Origin: Pandoraea communis
GTDB taxonomy: Bacteria > Pseudomonadota > Gammaproteobacteria > Burkholderiales > Burkholderiaceae
Direction of reading: 5' to 3'
NCBI RefSeq assembly: GCF_902459745.1
Contig: NZ_CABPSJ010000002.1
Coordinates: 62,001-126,000 of the forward strand
DNA length: 64,000 bases
The number at the start of each line of letters is the position of its first letter. The first letter of the stretch is position 1. This document shows positions 1-12,126 of this stretch, one piece after another. The translations under genes and the position numbers were made by a program. A model generated the notes under the pieces. The model made no database searches. It was not told the DNA's origin and saw only the letters and a program-made list of their open reading frames with translations.

Positions 1-359
1 TCAAGGAAGCGATTTCGATCGTCGCCGTGCATGCCATCGATCACCCGGAGCACAAGCAGTTCATCTCGCAACACGCGTCCGAGACCGGCGAGCGTGGGGC
101 GGTCCTGCACCGGCATCTGGTCATGCCGGTGTACGAGTGCATGGAACCGCTGATCACTCAGGGCATGCAGGCAGGCGTTGTGCGCGCGGAGCATCCGGAG
201 ATGTATTTCTGTCTGCTCGTGCACGCGCTGCATCCGCCGCCCGGCTCGCCCGTACTGATGCAGTTGATCGCCCCGGAAGTGGGTGGTGAGGCGTTCGGCC
301 CGGCGCTTCTCAAGCAGGTCGAGATGGTGTTTTTCGCGACGCCGGACGCGAAGCCCTGA
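1..359 (+). CDS. TetR/AcrR-type transcriptional regulator, C-terminal part (5'-truncated)
   Basis: The reading frame is open from base 3 to the TGA at 357-359 and has no convincing start in the window, so the gene begins upstream. The roughly 118 visible residues are helical and look like the ligand-binding, dimerising C-terminal half of a TetR regulator, for example the stretch LITQGMQAGVVRAEHPEMYF followed by a hydrophobic helix. The N-terminal HTH is not visible, so neither target nor ligand can be named. The gene converges on the argE-like gene that ends 30 bases downstream on the other strand. Assignment rests on overall pattern only. Confidence 0.55.
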   Translation, partial: KEAISIVAVHAIDHPEHKQFISQHASETGERGAVLHRHLVMPVYECMEPLITQGMQAGVVRAEHPEMYFCLLVHALHPPPGSPVLMQLIAPEVGGEAFGPALLKQVEMVFFATPDAKP

Positions 360-389
360 CGCGCCGGCGTGGGTACTCAGCGCGGCGTA

Positions 390-1553
390 TTACCGCGCCG
401 TCGTCAGGTACTGCGCGAGGCGACGCAGCATCGCATCGCAGCCCTCGAGTTGTTCGATGCTCACGAACTCATCGGGCTTGTGCCCCTGATCCATACTCCC
501 AGGGCCGCAAACCACCGTCGGGATACCCACTTCGTTGAACAGGCCACCCTCGGTGCCGAAGGCGACCGTGCCGAACTCGTCCGATCCGCACAACATCGCC
601 AGCAGACGTGCGGCGTCGCTATCGGGCGGCGTCGCCAGCCCCGGATAAGCCGAGAGCGGAAAGAGACGGATGCCGGTGTCCGGCTTCACCGCCTGCATCT
701 TGGGCAGCAAGTCCTCATCGGCGTAGCGTTGCAAGGCCTCGGCAACGCGATTCGCATCGAAGCCCGGTAATGCGCGCACTTCGAAATCGAACTCGCATTC
801 GGCGGGCACGATATTCAACGCCCGTCCGCCTTTGATAACGCCCGTTTGCACCGTGGAGTAAGGCGGATCGAAGCGCGTGTCGTGATACTCGGGATCGGCA
901 AGTTCATCGCCAATGTCCTCGAGACAGTTGATGAGCCGCGCGGCGTACTGGATCGCGTTGACGCCATAAGGGGCATACGCGGAATGGCACGGCGCGCCCT
1001 TCACACAGCAGCGCATCGCCAGTTTGCCTTTGTGGCCCAGCACTGGCTTGAGCGCCGTGGGCTCCCCGATCAGACACAGCACCGGTTTGTGCGGGCGCTT
1101 CGCGATCTCGGCAAGCATGGGCCGCACACCGAGACACCCGATCTCCTCGTCGTATGAGAAAGCAAGATGCACGGGCATCTGCAATTCGCATTCGACAAAA
1201 TTCGGTACCGCCGCGAGCACCGACGCCAGAAATCCTTTCATGTCCGCCGTGCCGCGGCCGTAAAGCCGTCCGTCTTTCTCGACGAGACGAAATGGGTCGA
1301 CGCTCCACGCCTGACCGTCGACCGGCACAACGTCGGTGTGCCCCGAGAGCACAATCCCGCCGCGATCTCGCGGGCCGATGGTGGCGAACAGATTGGCCTT
1401 GGTACGCTCGTCGTTATAGAACAGCTCGCTTTGCACCCCGTGTTGCGCGAGGTAATCGCGAATGAACTCGATCAGCGCCAGATTGGAATCGCGGCTCACG
1501 GTCGCGAATCCGATCAACCGTTCGAGCAGCGCGCGGCTCGACAGGTCATTCAT
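390..1553 (-). CDS. argE: M20-family deacylase, ArgE (acetylornithine deacetylase)-like
   Basis: A 387-residue zinc amidohydrolase of the M20/ArgE/DapE family. Visible metal and catalytic residues are H72 in GHTDVVP, D104 in GTADMKG, the EE pair at 136-137, E164 in GEPT, and H358 near GSMDQGHKPDE. Family members hydrolyse N-acyl amino acids; ArgE removes acetyl from N-acetylornithine. Here the gene is last in a four-gene operon with a flavin monooxygenase, RidA and a DUF1028 protein, and overlaps the DUF1028 gene by 8 bases. That context suggests a catabolic deacylase acting on an N-acyl intermediate more than a biosynthetic ArgE. Start ATG at 1553. Family is certain, substrate is not. Confidence 0.85.
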   Translation of the reverse strand: MNDLSSRALLERLIGFATVSRDSNLALIEFIRDYLAQHGVQSELFYNDERTKANLFATIGPRDRGGIVLSGHTDVVPVDGQAWSVDPFRLVEKDGRLYGRGTADMKGFLASVLAAVPNFVECELQMPVHLAFSYDEEIGCLGVRPMLAEIAKRPHKPVLCLIGEPTALKPVLGHKGKLAMRCCVKGAPCHSAYAPYGVNAIQYAARLINCLEDIGDELADPEYHDTRFDPPYSTVQTGVIKGGRALNIVPAECEFDFEVRALPGFDANRVAEALQRYADEDLLPKMQAVKPDTGIRLFPLSAYPGLATPPDSDAARLLAMLCGSDEFGTVAFGTEGGLFNEVGIPTVVCGPGSMDQGHKPDEFVSIEQLEGCDAMLRRLAQYLTTAR

Positions 1554-2223
1554 CGCCCGGCACTCCGTAACTAGGCGCGGCCGTGGGATTCAGGGCACGG
1601 GTGATGTAGTCCTGCATTTGTGGCCGATAGGCTTGCCAGAGGCCATCGAGCTTGCCGATAGGATCGTCGTCTGCCCAATCGACCCGCAGATCGACGATGG
1701 GCCACACCAGATCGCCCACGATCTTCAACGCTGCCGAGTGCACTGGCCCGGCCTCTCCACCGCTGGCGATAGCGGCATGCATCGCGGCCAGCAATCGATC
1801 GGCCAGCGCGCCGGGCGTATTCTCGAACGCCGGCACCATCGCTTCGATCACCTCGCTGCTCGTCAGCATGTTGCCCGCCGCGACGCATTGCGCCCCCGCT
1901 ACGGCATGATAGGTGCCTAACGCCTGATCGCCGCTGAAAAACGCGGTGCGACCTTGCGCATCGATCACCGTGACCTGCCGATACTCGCTCCACTCGCTCT
2001 CGGCCAGGGTGCGGCTCAACGCCGTCGCCGGGTCGATATTGCCCTGTGCGAGGCAGTCGAGAATTTGCGGCCCCAGCGCGGGCAGCGTGACGTTTTGCGT
2101 GGCGACCGCACCGACGTTCGCACGCAGCCACGGACACCGCGCGCCCACGGCGATGCTCGACGAACTGATCGCGATGCCGAGCTGCCCGGTGCGCGCGCAC
2201 CGTCCAACGATAGAGAAAGTCAT
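1546..2223 (-). CDS. DUF1028 family protein (Ntn-hydrolase-like fold)
   Basis: A 225-residue protein beginning MTFSIVGRCARTGQLGIAIS, with the ATQNVTLPALGP and GNMLTSSEV segments typical of DUF1028. This family is predicted to have an Ntn-hydrolase-type fold, but its reaction is not established. It often occurs beside RidA and amidohydrolases in degradative clusters, as here between RidA (10 bases upstream) and the ArgE-like gene (8-base overlap). A strong AAGGAG site sits 7 bases before the ATG. A role in hydrolysing an amide intermediate of the local pathway is inference. Confidence 0.85.
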   Translation of the reverse strand: MTFSIVGRCARTGQLGIAISSSSIAVGARCPWLRANVGAVATQNVTLPALGPQILDCLAQGNIDPATALSRTLAESEWSEYRQVTVIDAQGRTAFFSGDQALGTYHAVAGAQCVAAGNMLTSSEVIEAMVPAFENTPGALADRLLAAMHAAIASGGEAGPVHSAALKIVGDLVWPIVDLRVDWADDDPIGKLDGLWQAYRPQMQDYITRALNPTAAPSYGVPGDE

Positions 2224-2232
2224 ATGCGCTCC

Positions 2233-2670
2233 TTATGCACCGGACGGCGCCCATCCCTCGGGAATCACCGCGATGACGTCGATTTCCATCAACCACTCGG
2301 GCTGTCCCAGCGCGACCACCGTGAGTCCGGTGGAGATCGGAAACACGCCCTTGAGCCACTTGCCCACTTCACGATAGACCGGCTCACGAAAGCGCACGTC
2401 GGTCAGGTAAGTCGTGGTCTTGACCACGTGCGACAGGTCGCTGCCCGCCTCTTCGAGCAACTGCTTGACGTTTTTCATTGCCTGCTCGGCCTGCGCGCGC
2501 GGATCGCCCAGCCCCACCAGATTGCCTTCGAAATCGGTACCGATCTGACCGCGCACGTAGACCGTGTTGCCTGCGCGCACGGCCTGACACAGGTCGTTAT
2601 CGAGCGATTGATTCGGGTACGTATCCTTGGTGTTGAACATGCGGATACGGGTATGCGTAGGCTGGCTCAT
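2233..2670 (-). CDS. RidA family protein (enamine/imine deaminase-like)
   Basis: A 145-residue RidA/YjgF/UK114 protein. The core runs from LCQAVRAGNTVYVRGQIGTD through AEQAMKNVKQLLEEAGSDL to GLTVVALGQPEWLMEIDVIA. RidA proteins form trimers and hydrolyse reactive enamine/imine intermediates. The canonical RidA arginine is not obvious here: the segment reads GQPEWLMEIDV, whereas RidA proper has a VARLPKD..VE(I/V)-type end, so this is probably a different Rid subfamily with its own substrate. The start at 2670 has AAGGAG 7 bases upstream and overlaps the monooxygenase stop as ATGA, implying translational coupling. It likely clears an imine formed by the upstream flavoenzyme. Confidence 0.88.
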   Translation of the reverse strand: MSQPTHTRIRMFNTKDTYPNQSLDNDLCQAVRAGNTVYVRGQIGTDFEGNLVGLGDPRAQAEQAMKNVKQLLEEAGSDLSHVVKTTTYLTDVRFREPVYREVGKWLKGVFPISTGLTVVALGQPEWLMEIDVIAVIPEGWAPSGA

Positions 2671-3947
2671 GGATGGGCTCCTTCGTTCGTTGGCGTGTCG
2701 TAGTAGGCGAGATACTTGCGTTGGGTGGCGATGTGGTCCGCAATATGTCTTGCGTCGTGCCACACCCCCCAGATGAAAGACGAGCCGCGGCGCGACAGCC
2801 ACGGCAACCCGAGGAAGTACACGCCCGGCTCTTTCGAGACACCGCGTTGATGTTTGGGCTTTCCGTTGTCGTCGAAGGCGTCGACCTGCAGCCAGCCGAA
2901 ATCAACGGCGTAGCCGGTGGCCCAGATGATCGACGTCACGTTCGCCTTTTCCATATCGAGTTCGAGCAACGGGTGCGTGAGGCACGCCGGATCGGCGGGA
3001 ATGACGCGTGCCTCCGGCTCTTCGGGCAGTTCGAGGCCGTTGCGCGCGACATAGGCGTCGGCCGCGTCGAGCAACGACAGATAGTTTTCGTCCCCACGGG
3101 CAATGTTGTCCGCGAGATCGGGCTGAAACCGGGCGACGCCGTTCTCAAACGATTGCGTCAGGCCCGTGAGCGTGACGCCCTCGTGCGCCAGACGCCGGAA
3201 ATCCACCGTATGCCCCCCGCGCGCGCCGCTTACCGCGATGGTCACGTGTTCTTTGCCGGGGCGCATGACTTCGGCATCCCACTCGCCGAGCACCCCCAGC
3301 CACCAGCAGAAGTCGCGTCCGCGATAGCCGCGCGGCGGCCGGTCGTGCGGGCCGACCGACAGATAAACCTGCCGCCCGGCGCGGTTCAGTTCGTCGGCAA
3401 TCTGCACGCCCGACGACCCGGCGCCCACCACGATCACGTGACCCGGCGGCAGTTGCTCCGGGTTGCGGTAGTCGGCCGAGTGGATCTGGGTGAGGCGCGC
3501 GTCCTTGGGCGCAATCGGCGGAATCACGGGACGCTGGAACGGCCCGGTCGCCACCACCACACGCTGCGCTTCGATCGTGCCGTCCGAGGTCTCCACGGTG
3601 AATCCCGGCCGGCCCGTGTTGCGCACGACCTTGGTTACCTCGACACCCGTGCGGATAGGCGCCTCGATCTTTCGGGCGTAGTCGACGAAATAGTCCGCCA
3701 CCTGCTCTTTCGGCGCGAAGCCATCGGGATCGACGCCCGTAAACGTCATGTTGGGGAACCGGTCGTGCCACGCCGGGCCATTGGCTACGAGCGAATCCCA
3801 ACGTCCGGTGCGCCAGCGCTCCGCGATACGCGAGCGCTCCAGCACGAGATGGGGCACGGCGAGCTTGCTCAGATGCTCGCTCATCGCCACGCCGGCCTGC
3901 CCGGCGCCGACGACGAGCGTATCGATTGACGTTGTATGCACTGTCAT
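2667..3947 (-). CDS. flavin-containing monooxygenase-like FAD/NAD(P) oxidoreductase
   Basis: A 426-residue two-dinucleotide-binding flavoprotein. The FAD motif GAGQAG is at 14-19 and the NAD(P) motif GAGSSG at 175-180. Between them QIHSADYRNP (about 153-162) resembles the flavin monooxygenase/BVMO fingerprint, and ATGY lies near 349. Enzymes of this class hydroxylate amines or sulfides or insert oxygen next to a carbonyl, using NADPH and O2. It is the first gene of the operon reading away from the LysR gene at 4137. The ATG at 3947 has a purine-rich GGAAGGA sequence upstream, inside a small CCTTCCGAAGG palindrome. Substrate unknown. Confidence 0.85.
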   Translation of the reverse strand: MTVHTTSIDTLVVGAGQAGVAMSEHLSKLAVPHLVLERSRIAERWRTGRWDSLVANGPAWHDRFPNMTFTGVDPDGFAPKEQVADYFVDYARKIEAPIRTGVEVTKVVRNTGRPGFTVETSDGTIEAQRVVVATGPFQRPVIPPIAPKDARLTQIHSADYRNPEQLPPGHVIVVGAGSSGVQIADELNRAGRQVYLSVGPHDRPPRGYRGRDFCWWLGVLGEWDAEVMRPGKEHVTIAVSGARGGHTVDFRRLAHEGVTLTGLTQSFENGVARFQPDLADNIARGDENYLSLLDAADAYVARNGLELPEEPEARVIPADPACLTHPLLELDMEKANVTSIIWATGYAVDFGWLQVDAFDDNGKPKHQRGVSKEPGVYFLGLPWLSRRGSSFIWGVWHDARHIADHIATQRKYLAYYDTPTNEGAHP

Positions 3948-4136
3948 GGCTTGCGTCCTTCCGAAGGCAGATTGATTCCAACGACCCGTAGGGGTGGGTC
4001 ATTCGCGGCAATCTACGCGCCTCGACAGAATCCGAAAAATATATTTAAAAAATGCAGGGCATCGGATTTGACTATGCAGACTTTTTTTTCGGTTTCACAA
4101 TGTCCTCGAACCATGCTGCCCAATGGAGCGATGCCG
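3948..4136. promoter_or_regulatory. divergent intergenic region with operator-like dyad
   Basis: This 189-base region separates the divergently transcribed monooxygenase operon and LysR gene. It holds an AT-rich core (AAAAATATATTTAAAAAA) flanked by a 7-bp inverted repeat, AATCCGA at 4029-4035 and TCGGATT at 4062-4068. The arrangement is typical of a LysR auto-regulated divergent promoter. The dyad is directly visible; operator function is inference. Confidence 0.5.
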
Positions 4137-5066
4137 ATGGACAATCAGCCCCTGCGCTACTCGCTGCGCCAACTGCGCTATTTCGTGGTCACAGCGGAAG
4201 TCCTGTCCTTCACTGCCGCAGCCCGGCGGCTGCATATTTCGCAGCCGTCCATTTCCACCGCGCTCGCGGATCTCGAGGTGTCGTTCGGCGTGCAGTTGTT
4301 CATCCGGCATCACGCGAGCGGCTTATCGCTCACGCAAGCGGGACGCGATCTGCTGGGGCAGGCACGTAACCTGCTCAAGACCGCCGAAGAACTGCAAATG
4401 GCCGCCAAGGAGATGGACGGCGGCATGACCGGCTCCATTGCGCTGGGTTGTCTTGCCTCGCTCGCGCCGCCGCTGATGCCGGGTCTCATCAGCCGCTTTA
4501 CGGAAGAGCACGCCGGCATCTCCTTTCGTACGGTGGAAGCACATCAAGACGGGCTGCTGCGCGGCCTGCACGACGGATCGCTCGATATCGTCCTCACGTA
4601 CAGCCTCGATCTGAGCGAGGACATCGCCTTCACGCCGCTGCTCTCGCTGCCGCCCTACGCCATCCTGCCCCGCACGCACCGGCTCGCCCGCGCACGCAAG
4701 GTGTCGCTGGCCGACTTGTTGCCGGAGCCCTATGTCATGCTCGATCTGCCGCACAGCCGCGAGTATTTTGCCGCGCTCTTCGACGCTGTCGGCAACCGCC
4801 CCGTCCCCGCATTCCGATCCTCGCAACCGGAAGTGGTGCGCGGCATGGTGGCAAACGGACTGGGCTACAGCCTGCTGAATTTCCCGCTCAAATCGAATCG
4901 CACGGTGGACGGCGAGGAGTTCGTCATCAAGCGCTTCAAAGACAACGTCAACGCCACCATGCTGGGCATCGCGCAATCGCGCACGATGAAGCCGCGCCGG
5001 GTCGTGGAGCGCTTCGCGGCCTTTTGCGAGAACGACATCCGGCGCCTGCATCTGTCGTCGCAGTGA
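4137..5066 (+). CDS. LysR-type transcriptional regulator of the Rieske/ABC/RidA island
   Basis: A 309-residue LysR regulator. The N-terminal winged HTH includes LRQLRYFVVTAEVLSFTAAA and RRLHISQPSISTALADLE; the remainder is the periplasmic-binding-protein-like effector domain (for example GSIALGCLASLAPPLMPGLI). The ATG at 4137 is preferred because GGAG at 4125-4128 is 8 bases away; ATG 4131 is too close. The gene lies between the divergent monooxygenase operon and the co-directional Rieske/ABC operon, so it probably controls both, with a pathway substrate or intermediate as co-inducer. The effector cannot be named from sequence. Confidence 0.92.
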   Translation: MDNQPLRYSLRQLRYFVVTAEVLSFTAAARRLHISQPSISTALADLEVSFGVQLFIRHHASGLSLTQAGRDLLGQARNLLKTAEELQMAAKEMDGGMTGSIALGCLASLAPPLMPGLISRFTEEHAGISFRTVEAHQDGLLRGLHDGSLDIVLTYSLDLSEDIAFTPLLSLPPYAILPRTHRLARARKVSLADLLPEPYVMLDLPHSREYFAALFDAVGNRPVPAFRSSQPEVVRGMVANGLGYSLLNFPLKSNRTVDGEEFVIKRFKDNVNATMLGIAQSRTMKPRRVVERFAAFCENDIRRLHLSSQ

Positions 5067-5069
5067 CGC

Positions 5070-5118
5070 ACAGGGCAACGGTGCAAAACAGACTGCATAG
5101 GGAAAACCTTTGCCCTGT
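5070..5118. repeat. 9-bp inverted repeat downstream of LysR gene
   Basis: ACAGGGCAA at 5070-5078 pairs perfectly with TTGCCCTGT at 5110-5118; a TGC/GCA pair lies inside the 31-base loop. It starts three bases after the LysR stop codon. It may be a terminator, an attenuator or a regulator site for the downstream Rieske/ABC operon. There is no T-run typical of an intrinsic terminator. Confidence 0.45.
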
Positions 5119-5120
5119 AT

Positions 5121-5138
5121 CCAAAAACAATATTTTGG
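5121..5138. promoter_or_regulatory. candidate LysR operator before the Rieske gene
   Basis: The perfect dyad CCAAAA-ACAATA-TTTTGG occupies 5121-5138, about 100 bases before the Rieske start. It also satisfies the T-N11-A rule of LysR sites (T5120 to A5132). It lies immediately after the 5070-5118 inverted repeat. Binding by the neighbouring LysR protein is inferred from position and symmetry only. Confidence 0.45.
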
Positions 5139-5237
5139 CTGGCAATTTGGCTTGATAGATTGATGTTCATGTTGAATGCGGTGCGCCAGGGCTTGCGACG
5201 TTGCCTGAAGCGTTCCGGCGAATGAACGGAGGGCTTC

Positions 5238-6386
5238 ATGGCTGACCAGACTGGGACGACCGCAGGGCAATCGCTCATCGACGCACTGCGTACCGGTGGC
5301 GAACGCCCATTCGACGACGCACGGGCCATGCCACCCGGTGTGTACACATCTCCTGAATTTCTCGCGAGGGAGCAGCGCGATATCTTTGCACACGAATGGC
5401 AATGCGTCGGCCGCGCAAGCGTCCTCGCCGCGCCCGGCGACTACCTGAGCGCGCAGATCGGCGATCAGCCCATCGTGGTGGTGCGCGACGAGCAGATGCA
5501 GCTAAGCGCCATGTCCAACGTCTGTCTGCACCGCATGTCAGTGCTGCTCGAAGGGCGCGGCAACGTCAGACGAATCGTGTGTCCTTATCACGCCTGGAAT
5601 TATTCGCTCGACGGCAAGCTCAAGGGCGCGCCGATGATGGATCAGCAAGCCGGTTTCTGCAAAGAGCGCTATCAACTGCCCGCGATTCGCTGCGAGCAAT
5701 GGCAAGGCTGGATCTACGTGACGCTCGATAACGATGCGCCACCCATCGGCACACAGCTCGCCGGGCTCACCGAGTTGATCGCGCCGTACGGCATGACCGA
5801 CTACATCGAAACTTTCTATGAAGAACACGTCTGGGACACCAACTGGAAAATCCTTGCCGAAAACTTCATGGAGAGCTACCACCTGCCGATGCTGCACCGC
5901 GCCACGGTAGGCCCCCATTCGAAGCTCGAAGAAATGGAGTGCCCGCCGGGTCACCCGGCTTTCAACTACCACTGGATCACCAAGGAAGCGACGCTGCCTA
6001 TCGGCAACGCGCATCCGGATAACACGCGGCTCGAAGGCCACTGGCGCAAGACGACGGCGCTGCTCGCCATCTACCCGACGCACCTCGTCACGCTCACCCC
6101 TGGGTACTTCTGGTATCTCGTGCTCCAGCCCCGAGGCGTTGACCGGGTGCATATCCGCTTCGGCGGCGGCCTCTCGCCCGAGTTCATTGCCGACGAAGCA
6201 GCCAACGCCCATATGGTCACGCTCAAAGCGCTGCTCGACGAAGTGAACGCCGAAGACCGGCGCGGTGTGGAGGCCGTGTTCCGAGGCGTGCATGCACCAC
6301 TCGCGAAGCCCGGCCATCTGAGCCGGCTGGAGCGCCCGAACTACGATTTCGCACGCTATCTGGCTGCCAAGCTGGCACAGCCCTAA
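5238..6386 (+). CDS. Rieske non-heme iron oxygenase, alpha (catalytic) subunit
   Basis: A 382-residue Rieske oxygenase. The [2Fe-2S] ligands are C96 and H98 (CLHR) and C115 and H118 (CPYHAWNY). The catalytic domain has NWKILAENFMESYHLPMLH with iron-binding H215 and H220. Relatives include aromatic ring dioxygenases and the choline monooxygenase/betaine demethylase group. A polyamine-type ABC importer follows immediately, so a small cationic or zwitterionic amine is a likely substrate, but this is inference. No beta subunit or ferredoxin gene is adjacent, fitting the alpha-only type. A GGAGG site lies 5 bases before the ATG. Confidence 0.9.
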   Translation: MADQTGTTAGQSLIDALRTGGERPFDDARAMPPGVYTSPEFLAREQRDIFAHEWQCVGRASVLAAPGDYLSAQIGDQPIVVVRDEQMQLSAMSNVCLHRMSVLLEGRGNVRRIVCPYHAWNYSLDGKLKGAPMMDQQAGFCKERYQLPAIRCEQWQGWIYVTLDNDAPPIGTQLAGLTELIAPYGMTDYIETFYEEHVWDTNWKILAENFMESYHLPMLHRATVGPHSKLEEMECPPGHPAFNYHWITKEATLPIGNAHPDNTRLEGHWRKTTALLAIYPTHLVTLTPGYFWYLVLQPRGVDRVHIRFGGGLSPEFIADEAANAHMVTLKALLDEVNAEDRRGVEAVFRGVHAPLAKPGHLSRLERPNYDFARYLAAKLAQP

Positions 6387-6411
6387 GTTTCGAAGACAGG
6401 ACGCAATCACG

Positions 6412-7596
6412 ATGTCGAATCCATCCTTCATTTCGTTCTCGGGCGTGAGTAAGTCGTATGACGGCGTGCAATGCGTCGTCGACGACCTGAACCTCGATGT
6501 GCGCAAGGGAGAGTTCTTGTCGCTGCTCGGCCCTTCCGGTTCGGGCAAGACGACCACGCTCATGATGCTCGCGGGCTTCGAGTCGCCCACCCACGGCGAG
6601 ATTCGCCTGGACGGCAAGCGTCTGGACGACAAGCCGCCGCATCGCCGCGATATCGGTATGGTGTTTCAGAACTACGCCCTTTTCCCGCATCTCACGATTG
6701 CGCAGAACGTCGCCTTTCCGCTCTCCGTCAGGCGCGTGAGCCGTGCCGAACAGGACGTCCGCGTCAAACGCGCCCTGGACATGATCGAGCTGTCGCACCT
6801 CGCCAACCGGCGCCCCGCGCAACTCTCCGGCGGGCAGCAACAGCGCGTGGCGCTCGCGCGTGCGCTGGTGTTCGAGCCGAGCGTCGTGCTGATGGACGAG
6901 CCGCTCGGCGCGCTCGACAAGCGCCTTCGCGAAACGATGCAATACGAAATCATGCGGCTGCATCGGGAACTGTCGCTCACCATCGTCTACGTGACCCACG
7001 ATCAGGCCGAAGCGCTAACGATGTCGGATCGCGTGGCCGTGTTCTCCGACGGACGCATTCAGCAAGCGGCGCCGCCGAGCGAACTCTACGAGAACGCGCA
7101 GAACGCATTCGTCGCGAATTTCGTCGGCGAGAACAACGGATTGACCGGCCATGTCGTGAGCGTTCACGAAGGTTGGGCGACGCTTGCGCTGTCGGACGGC
7201 AGCATGATTCGCGGCCGCTGCGAGCAAGGGTTGAGCGCCGGTGACGATGCGATGCTCGCGTTGCGCCCCGAACGCGCCCACATCCCTGGGGCAGACGGCC
7301 TTCCGAACGGCGACCAACAGAACAACGTCGTGCGGGCACGTGTCGACGAGATCGTGTATTGCGGCGATCACCATCGCGTGCACCTCACACTCGGCTCGCA
7401 CGACGCCATCGTCGTGAAAGTCCCCAACACGCAGCGTCATGCACTGCCCGGTGCCGGCGACACCATCGACGTCGCCTGGCGTCATGACGACTGCAAGATT
7501 CTCGCCGCCTGCGCGCCGCGCACGGCGCAAACGATCCACTCTCCCAACGCGCCTTCCCCGTCCCTCATCTTGACCGCACCTGCAGGAGCCAATTGA
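6412..7596 (+). CDS. ABC transporter ATP-binding protein, spermidine/putrescine (PotA) type
   Basis: A 394-residue ATPase of the polyamine/opine/iron importer class. Walker A GPSGSGKTT is at 40-48, the signature LSGGQ at 138-142 and Walker B VVLMDEP at 158-164, followed by ALD. The C-terminal 150 residues form a TOBE-type regulatory domain. It starts 25 bases after the Rieske gene and ends one base before the start of the binding-protein gene. With the next three genes it makes a complete importer, so the operon couples uptake to oxygenation. Confidence 0.93.
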   Translation: MSNPSFISFSGVSKSYDGVQCVVDDLNLDVRKGEFLSLLGPSGSGKTTTLMMLAGFESPTHGEIRLDGKRLDDKPPHRRDIGMVFQNYALFPHLTIAQNVAFPLSVRRVSRAEQDVRVKRALDMIELSHLANRRPAQLSGGQQQRVALARALVFEPSVVLMDEPLGALDKRLRETMQYEIMRLHRELSLTIVYVTHDQAEALTMSDRVAVFSDGRIQQAAPPSELYENAQNAFVANFVGENNGLTGHVVSVHEGWATLALSDGSMIRGRCEQGLSAGDDAMLALRPERAHIPGADGLPNGDQQNNVVRARVDEIVYCGDHHRVHLTLGSHDAIVVKVPNTQRHALPGAGDTIDVAWRHDDCKILAACAPRTAQTIHSPNAPSPSLILTAPAGAN

Positions 7597-7597
7597 C

Positions 7598-8644
7598 ATG
7601 CGCACTCCCATCAAAACTCATTGCGCCGCCTTCGCGGTACTCGCGTTCGCGGCCGTCACATCGCACGCTGCGGAAACGCTCAGTGTAGTGACTTTCGGCG
7701 GCGCCTTCGAAGCGGCAGCGAAGAAGGCCTGGTTCGAGCCGTTCACGCAAGCCACCGGCGTGACATTCGCGACGGAATCGTACGATGGCGGCCTGGCCAA
7801 GCTCTCGGCGATGGAACAGGCGAAGAACACCACGTGGGATCTGATCGACCTCGAAACCAACGACGCAATCACGGCCTGCGACGAAGGGTTGCTCAAGAAA
7901 TTCGACAAGAAGTCGCTCGGCAAGACCAGCGACTTCATCCCCGGCTCGATCAGCGAGTGTGCGGTCGCAAGCATGGTGTGGTCTACCATCTATGCGTACG
8001 ACACCAGCAAGCTGAAAACCGCACCGAGCACCGTCAACGACTTCTTCGATTTGCAGAAATTCCCGGGCAAGCGCGGGCTGCGCAAGTCGCCCAAGGTCAC
8101 GATGGAGTGGGCGTTGATCGCCGATGGTGTCGATCCGAAGGACGTGTACAAGGTACTTGCCACGCCCGCCGGTGTTGACCGCGCGTTCAAAAAGCTCGAC
8201 ACGATCAAGAAGAGCATCGTGTGGTGGGAGTCCGGCGCGCAGGCGCCGCAATTGCTCGCCGACGGCGCGGTTGTGATGGTGCAGGCCTATAACGGCCGCA
8301 TCGACGACGCCGCGAAGAAGGACAAGAAGCCCTTCAAGGCCGTGTGGGATGCGCAGGTCTACGACTTCGAATGGTGGGGCGTGCCGGCCGGCGCGAAACA
8401 TGCCGACACCGCCGCGAAGTTCATCGTCTCGGCGTCGCAACCGAAGGCGTCGGCGGATCTGTCGAAGTACATCGCCTATGCGCCGCCGCGCAAGGATGCC
8501 GTGGCGTTGGTCGACAAGCAGCGTCTGGCCGATATGCCGACCGCGCCGGAGAACTTCAAGCGCGCCGTGCAGATCAACGCCAATTTCTGGGCCGACAATG
8601 CCGACGCCATCAACAAGCGTTTCCAGGTCTGGCTGACGCAGTAA
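7598..8644 (+). CDS. ABC transporter periplasmic substrate-binding protein (PotD-like)
   Basis: A 348-residue extracellular binding protein of the spermidine/putrescine-type family. A clear Sec signal peptide (KTHCAAFAVLAFAAVTSHA) ends near residue 24. The mature protein begins AETLSVVTFGGAFEAAAKKA, and WWESGAQAPQLLADGAVVMV matches the family. It captures the ligand in the periplasm for the adjacent permeases. AGGAG precedes the start by 9 bases, within the end of the ATPase gene. Ligand identity cannot be read from sequence; the family binds polyamines, opines, amino-acid-like amines and related cations. Confidence 0.92.
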   Translation: MRTPIKTHCAAFAVLAFAAVTSHAAETLSVVTFGGAFEAAAKKAWFEPFTQATGVTFATESYDGGLAKLSAMEQAKNTTWDLIDLETNDAITACDEGLLKKFDKKSLGKTSDFIPGSISECAVASMVWSTIYAYDTSKLKTAPSTVNDFFDLQKFPGKRGLRKSPKVTMEWALIADGVDPKDVYKVLATPAGVDRAFKKLDTIKKSIVWWESGAQAPQLLADGAVVMVQAYNGRIDDAAKKDKKPFKAVWDAQVYDFEWWGVPAGAKHADTAAKFIVSASQPKASADLSKYIAYAPPRKDAVALVDKQRLADMPTAPENFKRAVQINANFWADNADAINKRFQVWLTQ

Positions 8645-8660
8645 CGGCTAACAGCGCGAG

Positions 8661-9920
8661 ATGACCGATATGCCCGCATCGATTCATGCCACGTCACACG
8701 CGCCGGCAAGCGCCGAAGGACTCGCCGCTTACCGGCGCGTGCAAAGGCGCGCGTCGATGCGGGCGCTGATGCTCGCGTTGCCGTTGATCGTATTTCTGCT
8801 CTCGACGTTCATCGCGCCCATTGCGCTGCTGCTCGCCAGGAGTGTGCAGAATCAGGAAATCGCCGACGGGATGCCGCAGCTCGCCCGTGCGCTCGACGCG
8901 TGGGACGGCAGCGGCGTACCGGGCGAGGCGACGTTTGCCCAGCTCGCCGCGGGTCTGAAACAAGCGCACGAAAGCGGGCAGCTCGGCACCATTGCCCGAC
9001 GCATGAACTTCGCGCAACCCGAGTTTCGCAGTCTGCTCATGCGCACCGCACGCGCCGTCGGCAACGATGCGCCGCCGGCATGGAAGCCCGTGCTGATCGA
9101 GATCGACGAGCGCTGGGGCTCGCCCGAAACGTGGCGCTTGCTCAAGCGTGCCGCCGCCTCGCCCACGCCGGACTATCTGCTCGCCGGCATGGATGCGCAG
9201 GTCACACCGCAAGGGGTCATCGCCGCGCTGCCCGAGAACGCCTCGGTGTATCGCGCGGCGTTCGTGCGCACGATTTCCATCAGCGCCACCGTGACACTGC
9301 TGTGCCTCGTCTTCGGCTATCCGGTCGCGTGGCTGCTGGCGAATCTCCCCGAGAAGCAAAGCAATCGGCTGATGCTGTTCGTCATCGTTCCGTTCTGGAC
9401 ATCGCTGCTGGTTCGCACAACGGCGTGGTACGTCTTGCTGCAACCCGGCGGTGTCATCAACAGCCTGTTGTCGAGCCTGGGCATCACCACGCATCCCGTG
9501 CCGCTGATCTTTAACCGTACCGGCGTGCTGATCGGCATGACCCACGTGCTGCTGCCCTACATGATTCTCGCGATCTATTCGGTGATGAAGAGCGTGCCAC
9601 CCGTTTATATGCGTGCGGCGAAATCGCTTGGTGCGCATCCGTTCACGGCGTTCGTGCGCGTGTACATTCCGCAGACCCTGCCGGGGGTAGGTGCCGGGTG
9701 CTTTCTCGTCTTCGTGCTTGCGCTGGGTTACTACATCACGCCCTCGCTGCTCGGTGGCGCGGGCGACGAGATGATCAGCCAGCTCATCGCCATGCAGACC
9801 AATACGCAACTCAACTGGGGACTCGCGGGCGCGCTCTCGGCGTATCTCGTGATCTTCACGGCGGTCTTCTACTTAATCTTCAACCGTATCGTCGGCATCG
9901 ACCGGCTGCGCTTCGGTTGA
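8661..9920 (+). CDS. ABC transporter permease (PotB-like)
   Basis: A 419-residue inner-membrane permease. TM1 is near residues 34-58. It is followed by an unusually long non-membrane insert of about 140 residues, then the MetI-like permease domain from IRTISISATVTLLCLVFGYP-type sequence onward. The EAA-loop region reads MRAAKSLGAHPFTAFVRVYI. The long insert before TM2 occurs in some PotB-like permeases. The annotated ATG at 8661 could be replaced by ATG 8670; neither has a strong ribosome site. It forms the channel with the next permease. Confidence 0.9.
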   Translation: MTDMPASIHATSHAPASAEGLAAYRRVQRRASMRALMLALPLIVFLLSTFIAPIALLLARSVQNQEIADGMPQLARALDAWDGSGVPGEATFAQLAAGLKQAHESGQLGTIARRMNFAQPEFRSLLMRTARAVGNDAPPAWKPVLIEIDERWGSPETWRLLKRAAASPTPDYLLAGMDAQVTPQGVIAALPENASVYRAAFVRTISISATVTLLCLVFGYPVAWLLANLPEKQSNRLMLFVIVPFWTSLLVRTTAWYVLLQPGGVINSLLSSLGITTHPVPLIFNRTGVLIGMTHVLLPYMILAIYSVMKSVPPVYMRAAKSLGAHPFTAFVRVYIPQTLPGVGAGCFLVFVLALGYYITPSLLGGAGDEMISQLIAMQTNTQLNWGLAGALSAYLVIFTAVFYLIFNRIVGIDRLRFG

Positions 9921-9946
9921 TTTGCTCGCGACATAGGAGACAAGCC

Positions 9947-10774
9947 ATGCCGGACAAACGCAATACCGTACTGACGGAACGTGTGGCGTCGCGCTGGGTG
10001 CGCCTGCATACCGCGCTCACGCTGTTCTTCCTGATTGCGCCGATTCTCGCAATCGTGCCGCTCTCGTTCAACGCCGGTTCTTATTTCTCTTATCCGTTGA
10101 CCGGCTTTTCAATGCGCTGGTACCAGCAGGCGCTGACCAGCCCCGACTGGCAGCGAGCCCTGCTCAACAGCCTCGGCATCGGCGCGGCGTCGACCTTGAT
10201 TGCGACGTGTCTGGGCACGCTCGCGGCGCTTGGCCTGAGCCGTTCGCAGTTCCCGTTGCGCTCGGTCATCATGCCGATCATCATCTCACCGATGATCGTG
10301 CCCATCGTGGTCGTGGCGGCGGGCTTCTATCTGATCTTCGCGCCGCTCGGACTCGTGAATTCGTACCCCGGCGTGATTCTTGCCCATGCGGCGTTGGGCA
10401 CGCCATTCGTCGTCATCACCGTGACGGCCTCGCTGCTGTCGTTCGACCAGAGCCTTCTGCGCGCGGCCTCGGGCCTCGGCGCCACGCCATGGACCACGTT
10501 CCGGCGCGTGACGTTGCCGCTCATCACACCCGCAGTCGCCACCGGCAGCGTGTTCGCATTCGCCACGTCGTTCGACGAGGTCATCGTGATCCTCTTCATC
10601 GGCGGGCCAGACCAGAAGACCGTGCCGCGCCAGATGTGGAGCGGTATCCGTGACGCCATCGATCCGTCGATCCTCGCCGTCGCCACCATGTTGATCGTGT
10701 TCGCGGTGCTGCTATTCGCGAGCATCAACTGGCTGCGAGGACGGGCCACTGCGGCGAGTCATGCGATGAGCTGA
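9947..10774 (+). CDS. ABC transporter permease (PotC-like)
   Basis: A 275-residue MetI-type permease with about six membrane spans. The EAA loop is RAASGLGATPWTTFRRVTLP. The start at 9947 has AGGAGA 6 bases upstream and lies 26 bases after the first permease. It is the last gene of the Rieske/ABC unit; 92 bases separate it from the next coding sequence. Confidence 0.92.
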   Translation: MPDKRNTVLTERVASRWVRLHTALTLFFLIAPILAIVPLSFNAGSYFSYPLTGFSMRWYQQALTSPDWQRALLNSLGIGAASTLIATCLGTLAALGLSRSQFPLRSVIMPIIISPMIVPIVVVAAGFYLIFAPLGLVNSYPGVILAHAALGTPFVVITVTASLLSFDQSLLRAASGLGATPWTTFRRVTLPLITPAVATGSVFAFATSFDEVIVILFIGGPDQKTVPRQMWSGIRDAIDPSILAVATMLIVFAVLLFASINWLRGRATAASHAMS

Positions 10775-10866
10775 TGCGATGGCCTGGCCGATGTCAGCCA
10801 CAGCGTGAGCGCCACACGTGCGCTGATGCATTACACTGACGGCCAAATTCTCTCGCTTTCATCCTC

Positions 10867-12126
10867 ATGTCCGAAGCCACTTCCACCACTGTCATCCTTG
10901 GCGCAGGTCAGGCCGGCGGCGAAACCGCCCTCGCACTGCGTCAACTCGGTTACACCGGCCGCATCGTGCTCGCCGGCAGCGAAACGCATCTGCCCTATCG
11001 CCGCCCGCCGCTCTCGAAGGCGTTTCTGGCCGGTCAGGCCGATGAAGCCAGCCTGCTGATCCGTCCGGCCGATGCCTGGGAGAAGGCCGAAGTCGACGTG
11101 CGCCTCGGGGTGACGGCCACGGCCATCGATCGCGCGGCACGCACTGTCACGTTCGACGACGGCCAGACGCTGGGCTACGACCATCTGGTGCTGGCCCTCG
11201 GCGGCCGTGTGCGCCCGCTGCCCATCCCGGGCGGCGATGCACCGAACGTCTATTACCTGCGCAACATTGCCGACGCACAGCGTCTGCGCGAAGCCCTCAC
11301 ACCGGGGAAGCGTGTGGTCGTGGTCGGCGGCGGCTATATCGGTCTGGAAGTGGCGGCAAGCGCCGTCAAGGCGGGCACCAGCGTGACGGTGCTCGAAGCG
11401 GCGCCGCGCCTGCTGGCGCGCGTGGCGGAAGCCGATCTCGCCGGGTTCTTTGCGACGCTGCACCGCGAAAACGGTGTGGACGTGCAGGTCGGTGTCGGTG
11501 TGACAGCGCTGGAGCAGGACGCCACCGGTCAGGTTGTCGCCGTCGTGGCCGGTGACAAACGTCTGCCGGCAGACGTCGTGGTGGTCGGCATCGGCCTGAT
11601 CCCGAACGCCGAACTTGCTCAGGCAGCCGGTCTGGCGGTCGAGAACGGCATCGTCGTGGACGAATTCGCACGCACGAGCGATCCGGCCATTCTGGCGGTG
11701 GGCGATTGCGCGCATCACGAACACCCCGCACTGGGCCGCCGTATCCGTCTGGAGTCGGTGCCGAGCGCCAGCGAAATGGCCAAGGTGGCCGCGAGCGTGG
11801 TGCATGGCGACACGCCGAAGGCGGTCGCGACCGCACCGTGGTTCTGGTCCGATCAGTTCAACGCGAAACTGCAGATGGTCGGCATGACCGAAGGCCACGA
11901 CGCCGTGGTGGAGCGCCGGTTGCCCGACGCACAAGGGGCGGCGGTCTTCATGCTGTTCTATCTGCGTGAAGGCGCCGTCGTGGCGGCTGCGAGCATCAAC
12001 CGTGCGCAGGAGTTTCTTGCCGCGCGCGAACTCGTCGGCCGCCGCGCGGTGATCGATCCGGCCCGTCTGGCCGACGCCGCCACGCCACTCAAGACATTGC
12101 TCGCCGAACTCGGCCCGGCGGTCTGA
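10867..12126 (+). CDS. ferredoxin reductase-like NAD(P)/FAD oxidoreductase
   Basis: A 419-residue flavoprotein of the putidaredoxin/rhodocoxin reductase family. The FAD motif GAGQAGGE is near residues 13-20, the NAD motif VVGGGYIGLEVAA near 155-167 and ILAVGDCAHHE near 276-286; a C-terminal reductase domain follows. Such enzymes pass electrons from NAD(P)H to a [2Fe-2S] ferredoxin serving P450s or Rieske oxygenases. It may reduce the Rieske enzyme encoded 5 kb upstream, although it sits 92 bases after the transporter and could be separately transcribed. No Shine-Dalgarno sequence is visible before the ATG. Confidence 0.88.
   Translation: MSEATSTTVILGAGQAGGETALALRQLGYTGRIVLAGSETHLPYRRPPLSKAFLAGQADEASLLIRPADAWEKAEVDVRLGVTATAIDRAARTVTFDDGQTLGYDHLVLALGGRVRPLPIPGGDAPNVYYLRNIADAQRLREALTPGKRVVVVGGGYIGLEVAASAVKAGTSVTVLEAAPRLLARVAEADLAGFFATLHRENGVDVQVGVGVTALEQDATGQVVAVVAGDKRLPADVVVVGIGLIPNAELAQAAGLAVENGIVVDEFARTSDPAILAVGDCAHHEHPALGRRIRLESVPSASEMAKVAASVVHGDTPKAVATAPWFWSDQFNAKLQMVGMTEGHDAVVERRLPDAQGAAVFMLFYLREGAVVAAASINRAQEFLAARELVGRRAVIDPARLADAATPLKTLLAELGPAV

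Follow-up and report, generated by a model that had tools for sequence, protein, structure and literature searches.

The Rut pyrimidine pathway combines oxygenation by a flavin enzyme with a later amide hydrolysis, and a Rid-family protein also takes part in it. Group V Rieske oxygenases act on quaternary amines, with electrons passing via a bridging glutamate, and the enzymes of clade Va carry tyrosine or phenylalanine at position 203 (PMC7948474, available part of the text). A homarine catabolic pathway of environmental bacteria, known here by its title (Ferrer-Gonzalez et al. 2026), is cited in the accessible part of PMC13390433. These systems are compared here with a ten-gene locus of Pandoraea communis, which lies in a stretch of 64,000 nucleotides (contig NZ_CABPSJ010000002.1, positions 62,001–126,000; hereafter the window) whose genes were called from open frames and from Pfam and NCBIfam profile matches. 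The ten genes, at window positions 390–10774, form two divergent units flanking a single LysR gene (Table 1). The left unit, on the minus strand, encodes a flavin monooxygenase (FMO)-like, a Rid, a DUF1028 and an ArgE-like protein, and the right unit, on the plus strand, a Rieske oxygenase and PotA-, PotD-, PotB- and PotC-like importer components. The divergent arrangement around LysR, the ten families and the overlaps of 8 bp (1546–1553, ArgE/DUF1028) and of 4 bp (ATGA, 2667–2670, Rid/FMO), all described in an earlier note on this DNA, were found in place.

The locus is real and coherent and reads as a movable catabolic regulon, probably with a quaternary-nitrogen substrate, for which homarine is the best single guess. 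By gene content it comprises a single regulator, a single importer, a pair of oxygenases and three proteins of hydrolase type, gained or lost as a block. The fuller interpretation, a self-contained movable regulon for a small N-quaternary compound of betaine or pyridinium type, with an N-methylated heteroaromatic acid, for instance homarine (N-methylpicolinate), as the likeliest candidate, is held at slightly better than an even chance; that the substrate is homarine itself is a guess placed somewhat below one.

A genome scan with the Rieske protein yielded 256 relatives, and counts out of 80 refer to the best 80 of these 256, that is, to the nearest ones. The carriers among them were Pandoraea, Paraburkholderia, Caballeronia, Trinickia and strains named Burkholderia, the closest named relatives of the window being Pandoraea loci (Rieske identity 89–99%). 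The soil strain Paraburkholderia xenovorans LB400 (L052) is one of the organisms with the set. The genes present were colinear with the window in all 80 loci and all ten were present in 61, which argues for clustering beyond chance; the two divergent units, whose linkage the earlier note had proposed, are thus co-conserved across genomes. FMO alone was missing from four loci, and in most of the remaining 15 either a contig end was reached or ArgE was lacking. ArgE is the least conserved member (unmatched in 13 of 80), and because the stretch exceeds 21 kb in seven of these 13 loci (L020, L045, L081, L082, L090, L092 and L095; fetched loci are numbered with the prefix L) the gene is probably truly missing there.

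Within the genus the distribution is patchy, with a close Rieske match (E ≤ 2e-212) in 10 of 25 Pandoraea genomes, that of the window included. In four cluster-free Pandoraea genomes one match ended at window position 343–353 and the next started at 10810–10825, the gap between the two flank matches being 29 bp (L203), 88 bp (L206) or ∼1.6 kb (L204 and L205). The flanks adjoin in these genomes, and therefore a block of ∼354–10819 appears to be insertable as one piece holding only the ten genes. The base composition of the block was not set apart from its surroundings. Of the 21 Pandoraea genomes searched, 19 have the ferredoxin–NAD reductase gene that adjoins the block here: all seven that carry the block and 12 of the 14 that lack it. 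In genome G007 this gene is 1.5 Mb away from the block, and it was present in three of the 80 cluster loci. It was rejected as a member of the system, being a Pandoraea core gene, and the end point of 12126 proposed in the earlier note includes this core gene; the unit stops at PotC.

The nearest solved relative of the Rieske oxygenase by sequence is the carnitine monooxygenase CntA (E 8.6e-34). Aligned to CntA, the protein has a 2Fe-2S motif at 96–118, F210, the bridging E212, H215 and H220; E212 occupies the position of CntA E205, the glutamate of group V, and F210 provides the aromatic residue of clade Va at the 203 position. Both F210 and E212 were invariant in 135 of 135 loci. For this count, as for the other residue counts and those of flavin enzymes and of Sox- and hut-like neighbours given below, loci longer than 5 kb were used and repeats were retained (L112 repeats L076, L199 repeats L104, L208 repeats L021, and others may repeat). 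With these residues the enzyme carries the group Va quaternary-ammonium signature, which fits the betaine-type substrate named in the earlier note. The bridging glutamate, the aromatic residue two places before it and an alpha-only oxygenase are common to CntA, other group Va enzymes and the window protein. However, the latter can be aligned to CntA over residues 27–220 only, no CntB-type reductase was seen, and it is accompanied by a flavin monooxygenase and hydrolases.

The same likeness lends some support to a different substrate, namely a quaternary amine or betaine without an aromatic ring, such as a relative of carnitine, choline or proline betaine, which the Rieske enzyme would demethylate or cleave, the other enzymes processing the N-acylated amine. 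The closest PDB match is CntA, the closest NCBIfam model is GbcA, and the group V enzymes named in the available part of PMC7948474 act on such amines. The Rieske protein nevertheless falls far under the GbcA cut-off (NF058607, 137.4 against 670 bits) and the clade Vb asparagine is also absent; GbcA identity was rejected on these grounds. A flavin monooxygenase and two amide hydrolases are, moreover, hard to explain for a simple trialkylamine, and in Burkholderia pyrrocinia the left unit, there without a Rieske gene, adjoins a cytosine permease, whose family carries flat heterocycles. An aliphatic substrate of this kind is regarded as improbable.

The two units also appear to share a regulator site. 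The word CTATGCAR, on either strand, was found within 260 bp upstream of LysR in 76 of 79 loci (one of the 80 has no LysR gene; resampled mean 0.8). The interval separating LysR from the Rieske gene held it in 58 of 79, usually in inverted orientation. Both regions held it in 55 loci, whereas in 200 first-order resamplings the corresponding count averaged 0.015 and never exceeded 1. The exact octamer CTATGCAG was present before LysR in 30 of 79 loci, before the Rieske gene in 52 and in both places in 22. These counts are not independent, the loci being related to one another, and the word was chosen post hoc: it was first noticed by eye in the window, and its last base was widened to R once k-mer counts had been seen. 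Recurrence of the same word in two separate regions supports one regulon, in which both units would be controlled by the LysR protein via these putative binding sites. The common order, the common site and the presence or absence as one block all agree with the earlier proposal that the divergent units belong together.

The FMO-like protein has two GxGxxG motifs and H156-S-x-x-Y, and falls outside the MSMEG_0569 flavin oxidoreductases (TIGR04046, Table 1). An HpaB-like gene was found in the place of FMO in nine loci (Caballeronia, Burkholderia sp. and one Paraburkholderia metagenome-assembled genome; L112 is a repeat) and in two loci of a further family, f67, considered below. An HpaC-like match lay beside HpaB in the Burkholderiaceae cases scored and in L115, not in L165, and was also seen in two loci with FMO (L155 and L169); the HpaB/HpaC-like pair of L091 stayed under the cut-offs of both models. 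Of the 114 loci that hold both Rid and DUF1028, FMO alone was found in 95, HpaB alone in 11 and neither within the stretch in eight, and no locus had both; in two of the eight (L104 and L200) the fetched sequence breaks off within a flavin oxidoreductase gene. That FMO and HpaB never occurred together is as expected if both flavin enzymes perform the same oxygenation, and their exchange offers a clean route to working out the flavin step. Since the Rid, DUF1028 and ArgE proteins of the Burkholderiaceae HpaB cases are more diverged (45–67% identity against 73–99%), the left unit seems to have been replaced as a whole, the right unit being kept.

In Rid-family proteins, imine hydrolysis requires Arg105 of Escherichia coli TdcF or the equivalent residue, and serine takes that position in ∼10% of RidA proteins (PMC4433059, available part of the text). 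At this position, assigned by alignment to solved Rid proteins, serine was found in 111 and cysteine in six of 117 loci, and arginine in none (one of 118 loci was not covered). The protein also scored below the cut-off of the archetypal RidA model (TIGR00004, 67.2 against 106.25 bits). The label of imine hydrolase, used in the earlier note, is unsupported because the catalytic arginine is replaced; the alternation of serine and cysteine may, as a guess, point to nucleophilic catalysis.

The DUF1028 protein matches PF06267 and has the Ntn (N-terminal nucleophile) fold with Thr2 as the nucleophile residue. Pfam labels the family as one of unknown function, the entry title of its structure 2imh (SPO2555 of Silicibacter pomeroyi) states no function, and a literature search on 'DUF1028' and 'PF06267' found no publications in the library searched. 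The ArgE-like protein passes the acetylornithine deacetylase model TIGR01892 and has the metal-ligand motifs by pattern; its genomic context argues against arginine synthesis. A more specific and rather doubtful proposal places DUF1028 and the Ser/Cys-type Rid protein after interchangeable flavin oxygenases as a new pair of hydrolytic enzymes, with the serine or cysteine of Rid as nucleophile in place of arginine-based imine hydrolysis. The pathway would then be a catabolism of N-quaternary heteroaromatic acids that is so far undescribed in soil Burkholderiaceae. If true, the proposal would give both families a first function.

In the proposed mechanism, the importer would take up the N-quaternary substrate and the group Va-type Rieske enzyme would hold the cation against Phe210 and oxygenate it, a housekeeping ferredoxin and reductase supplying the electrons. 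The FMO or HpaB-like enzyme would oxygenate and open the ring to give an N-acyl (formyl) enamide, DUF1028 (with Thr2 as nucleophile) and the ArgE-like deacylase would cut amide bonds, and the Ser-type Rid protein would deal with an enamine or related reactive intermediate, the products being a common amino acid or 2-oxo acid and a C1 acid. We infer both the substrate and the order of these steps. A homarine pathway of environmental bacteria is cited by title in the accessible part of PMC13390433. A cationic pyridine acid would agree with the Rieske signature and with ring opening by a flavin enzyme ahead of the amide hydrolysis. The succession of flavin oxygenation and amide hydrolysis, together with a Rid-family protein, resembles the Rut pathway. 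The HpaC-like partner of the HpaB variant scores 103.6 bits to RutF, under the cut-off of 254.75. The locus differs in that the Rid protein scores 34.1 bits to RutC (cut-off 169.1), no RutA-, RutB- or RutD-type gene is among the ten, and a Rieske enzyme is present. If the regulon is correctly read, it would assign a pathway to DUF1028 and to the Rid proteins without this arginine.

Beyond Burkholderiaceae, seven alphaproteobacterial plasmid records were fetched by their Rieske match, of which four carry FMO, Rieske, Rid, DUF1028, LysR and ArgE together. These four Rhodobacterales sets are on plasmids of Pseudosulfitobacter, Paracoccus, Tropicibacter and Thioclava (Rieske identity 56–64%), and in Tropicibacter the five enzymes and LysR are adjacent; in the more distant Roseovarius and Aminobacter records the set is not together. 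In family f67, which is probably the same Rhodobacterales group, the Rieske gene was found in 41 of 149 genomes, at 43 places. Neighbourhoods were counted in 36 of these loci (a 37th was fetched separately): Rid and DUF1028 lay beside the Rieske gene in 22 and all six genes were present in 10. In wider samples the Rieske gene was found in seven of 398 genomes of the phylum and, at E 1e-90 or better, in nine of 385 genomes of the class of genome G336, both counts including the query genome or centre. A correct reading would imply a pathway for betaine-like compounds common to marine and soil bacteria, entering and leaving chromosomes as a block.

Several observations weigh against a regulon for an N-methylated heteroaromatic acid in this form. 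A Parasedimentitalea plasmid (Rieske identity 59%) has no Rid and DUF1028 near its Rieske gene, and the pair was likewise missing near Rieske in 14 of the 36 f67 loci, a few of which end at a contig edge. The Rhodobacterales LysR proteins are only 30–43% identical to that of the window, so that the regulators are at most putative orthologues. No electron-transfer partner or reductase recurred among neighbouring frames of ≥90 aa, which came from a rough caller and were in some cases on the wrong strand; electrons are therefore probably supplied by housekeeping proteins.

A further difficulty concerns N-methylglutamate dehydrogenase (Mgd), taken here as a sarcosine-oxidase-like enzyme that would need a SoxD-type subunit. 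No match to such a subunit was found in the window genome, it was absent from nine of 10 Pandoraea carriers, and the fetched loci showed no SoxD- or SoxB-like gene next to the cluster (with queries from L101, which is not a cluster locus); SoxA-like matches beside it were restricted to L115 and L170. In a set covering 27 of 28 carriers, each of the 23 non-Pandoraea carriers had the subunit and none of the four Pandoraea carriers did, and it was present in 54 of 54 f67 genomes (36 carriers and 18 non-carriers). The SoxD searches gave no match in 14 control genomes; the matches elsewhere are themselves evidence that the searches function. As a test of N-methylglutamate chemistry, co-occurrence with SoxD was dropped because it is uninformative outside Pandoraea. 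Compared with the homarine pathway as cited in the accessible part of PMC13390433, the Mgd step would stand without a SoxD-type subunit in most Pandoraea carriers. N-methylglutamate as a product there would need another enzyme, or else the substrate differs.

The gene set could also be a copy of the already described homarine (hom) operon, with nothing new in it, a possibility given less than an even chance and one that overlaps the regulon proposed here, so that the two are not exclusive. The operon is reportedly named homABCDER (five genes and R), and the adjacency of five enzymes and LysR in Tropicibacter agrees with this explanation. The lack of the SoxD-type subunit in most Pandoraea carriers speaks against it; even if it holds, the importer and the HpaB variant may be extensions of that operon. 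Among the publications listed by the literature searches, none was recognised as describing this gene set; its novelty is nonetheless open to doubt, as the set may already have been described as the homarine pathway.

The left unit was also found without a Rieske gene, in Burkholderia pyrrocinia beside the cytosine permease and in Ideonella, and, with another importer and extra enzymes, on one Klebsiella and one Pantoea plasmid. It resembles a shared lower pathway whose entry steps can be exchanged. The existence of FMO-RidA-DUF1028-ArgE without Rieske would also agree with degradation of an N-heterocycle that is neutral or zwitterionic, or of a compound related to histidine, rather than of a quaternary one, as would genes near the cluster in three f67 loci (L154, L174 and L179) that we take from their sequences to be hutG- and hutU-like (histidine breakdown). 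Such neighbours were present in only three of 36 f67 loci, and the aromatic residue 210 and the bridging glutamate are invariant; this explanation is considered distinctly improbable, and the quaternary substrate is preferred.

The PotA subfamily model TIGR01187 was passed narrowly (Table 1). The binding protein scored 31.9 bits against the PotD equivalog PRK09501 (cut-off 582), and polyamine as the substrate, implied by the polyamine-type importer of the earlier note, is not supported by this score. Its PDB sequence matches were 8jv1 (closest), 6dgv and 6hly, and its predicted model was poor (predicted local distance difference test 44, predicted template modelling score 0.41). The earlier interpretation thus stands in part: the units are linked and a betaine-type substrate fits, while the imine hydrolase, the polyamine and the end at 12126 are not supported. 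The PotB-like permease (8661–9920) has ∼190 residues ahead of the part covered by the PotB model (195–409), the alignment beginning at model position 59. The PotC start in Table 1 was set by comparison with L020; the scripts used 9938.

Table 1. Features of the ten-gene locus and its flank (window coordinates)
Feature	Position	Strand	Evidence
M20 metallo-deacylase, ArgE-like	390..1553	-	TIGR01892 418.1 bits, cut-off 297.7; PF01546
DUF1028 protein, Ntn-hydrolase fold, invariant Thr2	1546..2223	-	PF06267
Rid-family protein, Ser113 replacing catalytic Arg	2233..2670	-	PF01042 83.9 bits
Flavin monooxygenase, FMO/ArsO-like	2667..3947	-	TIGR04046 380.8 bits, below cut-off 498.35
Candidate shared site CTATGCAG, upstream of FMO and LysR	4072..4079	+	
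LysR-type regulator	4137..5066	+	PF00126, PF03466; 79/80 loci
Candidate shared site, inverted, upstream of Rieske gene	5093..5100	-	
Rieske oxygenase alpha subunit	5238..6386	+	PF00355, PF00848; CntA alignment
ATP-binding cassette (ABC) importer ATPase, PotA-like	6412..7596	+	TIGR01187 357.6 bits, cut-off 355.6
Periplasmic binding protein, agropine/GABA/polyamine-binding superfamily	7598..8644	+	PF13416
Importer permease, PotB-like	8661..9920	+	PF00528 at residues 219-411
Importer permease, PotC-like	~9947..10774	+	open frame; 78/80 loci
Ferredoxin-NAD reductase, flanking core gene outside unit	10867..12126	+	
Insertable ten-gene unit, approximate extent	354..10819	.	flank comparison with four cluster-free Pandoraea genomes

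On the Klebsiella pneumoniae plasmid ps01 (L199) and the Pantoea plasmid (L200), Rid-DUF1028-ArgE is accompanied by its own ABC importer and by quinone oxidoreductase, glutathione S-transferase-like and 3-dehydroquinate-dehydratase-like genes, the FMO of L199 being 62% identical. The DUF1028 protein was matched in 105 Klebsiella and seven Escherichia plasmid records. A weak hutG-like match (29%) was seen in L061.

A second, distant Rieske gene was found in 15 fetched loci (L028:16756–17910; L058, L173 and L179–L181 among others). The second Rieske protein of L028 is ∼34% identical and has the same ENFME motif, and the gene has its own LysR gene in L028 and L058. A protein of ∼263 aa encoded at L028:17950–18741, possibly of the phytanoyl-CoA dioxygenase type as read from its sequence and with no NCBIfam match, recurs in 18 loci (L112 repeating L076).

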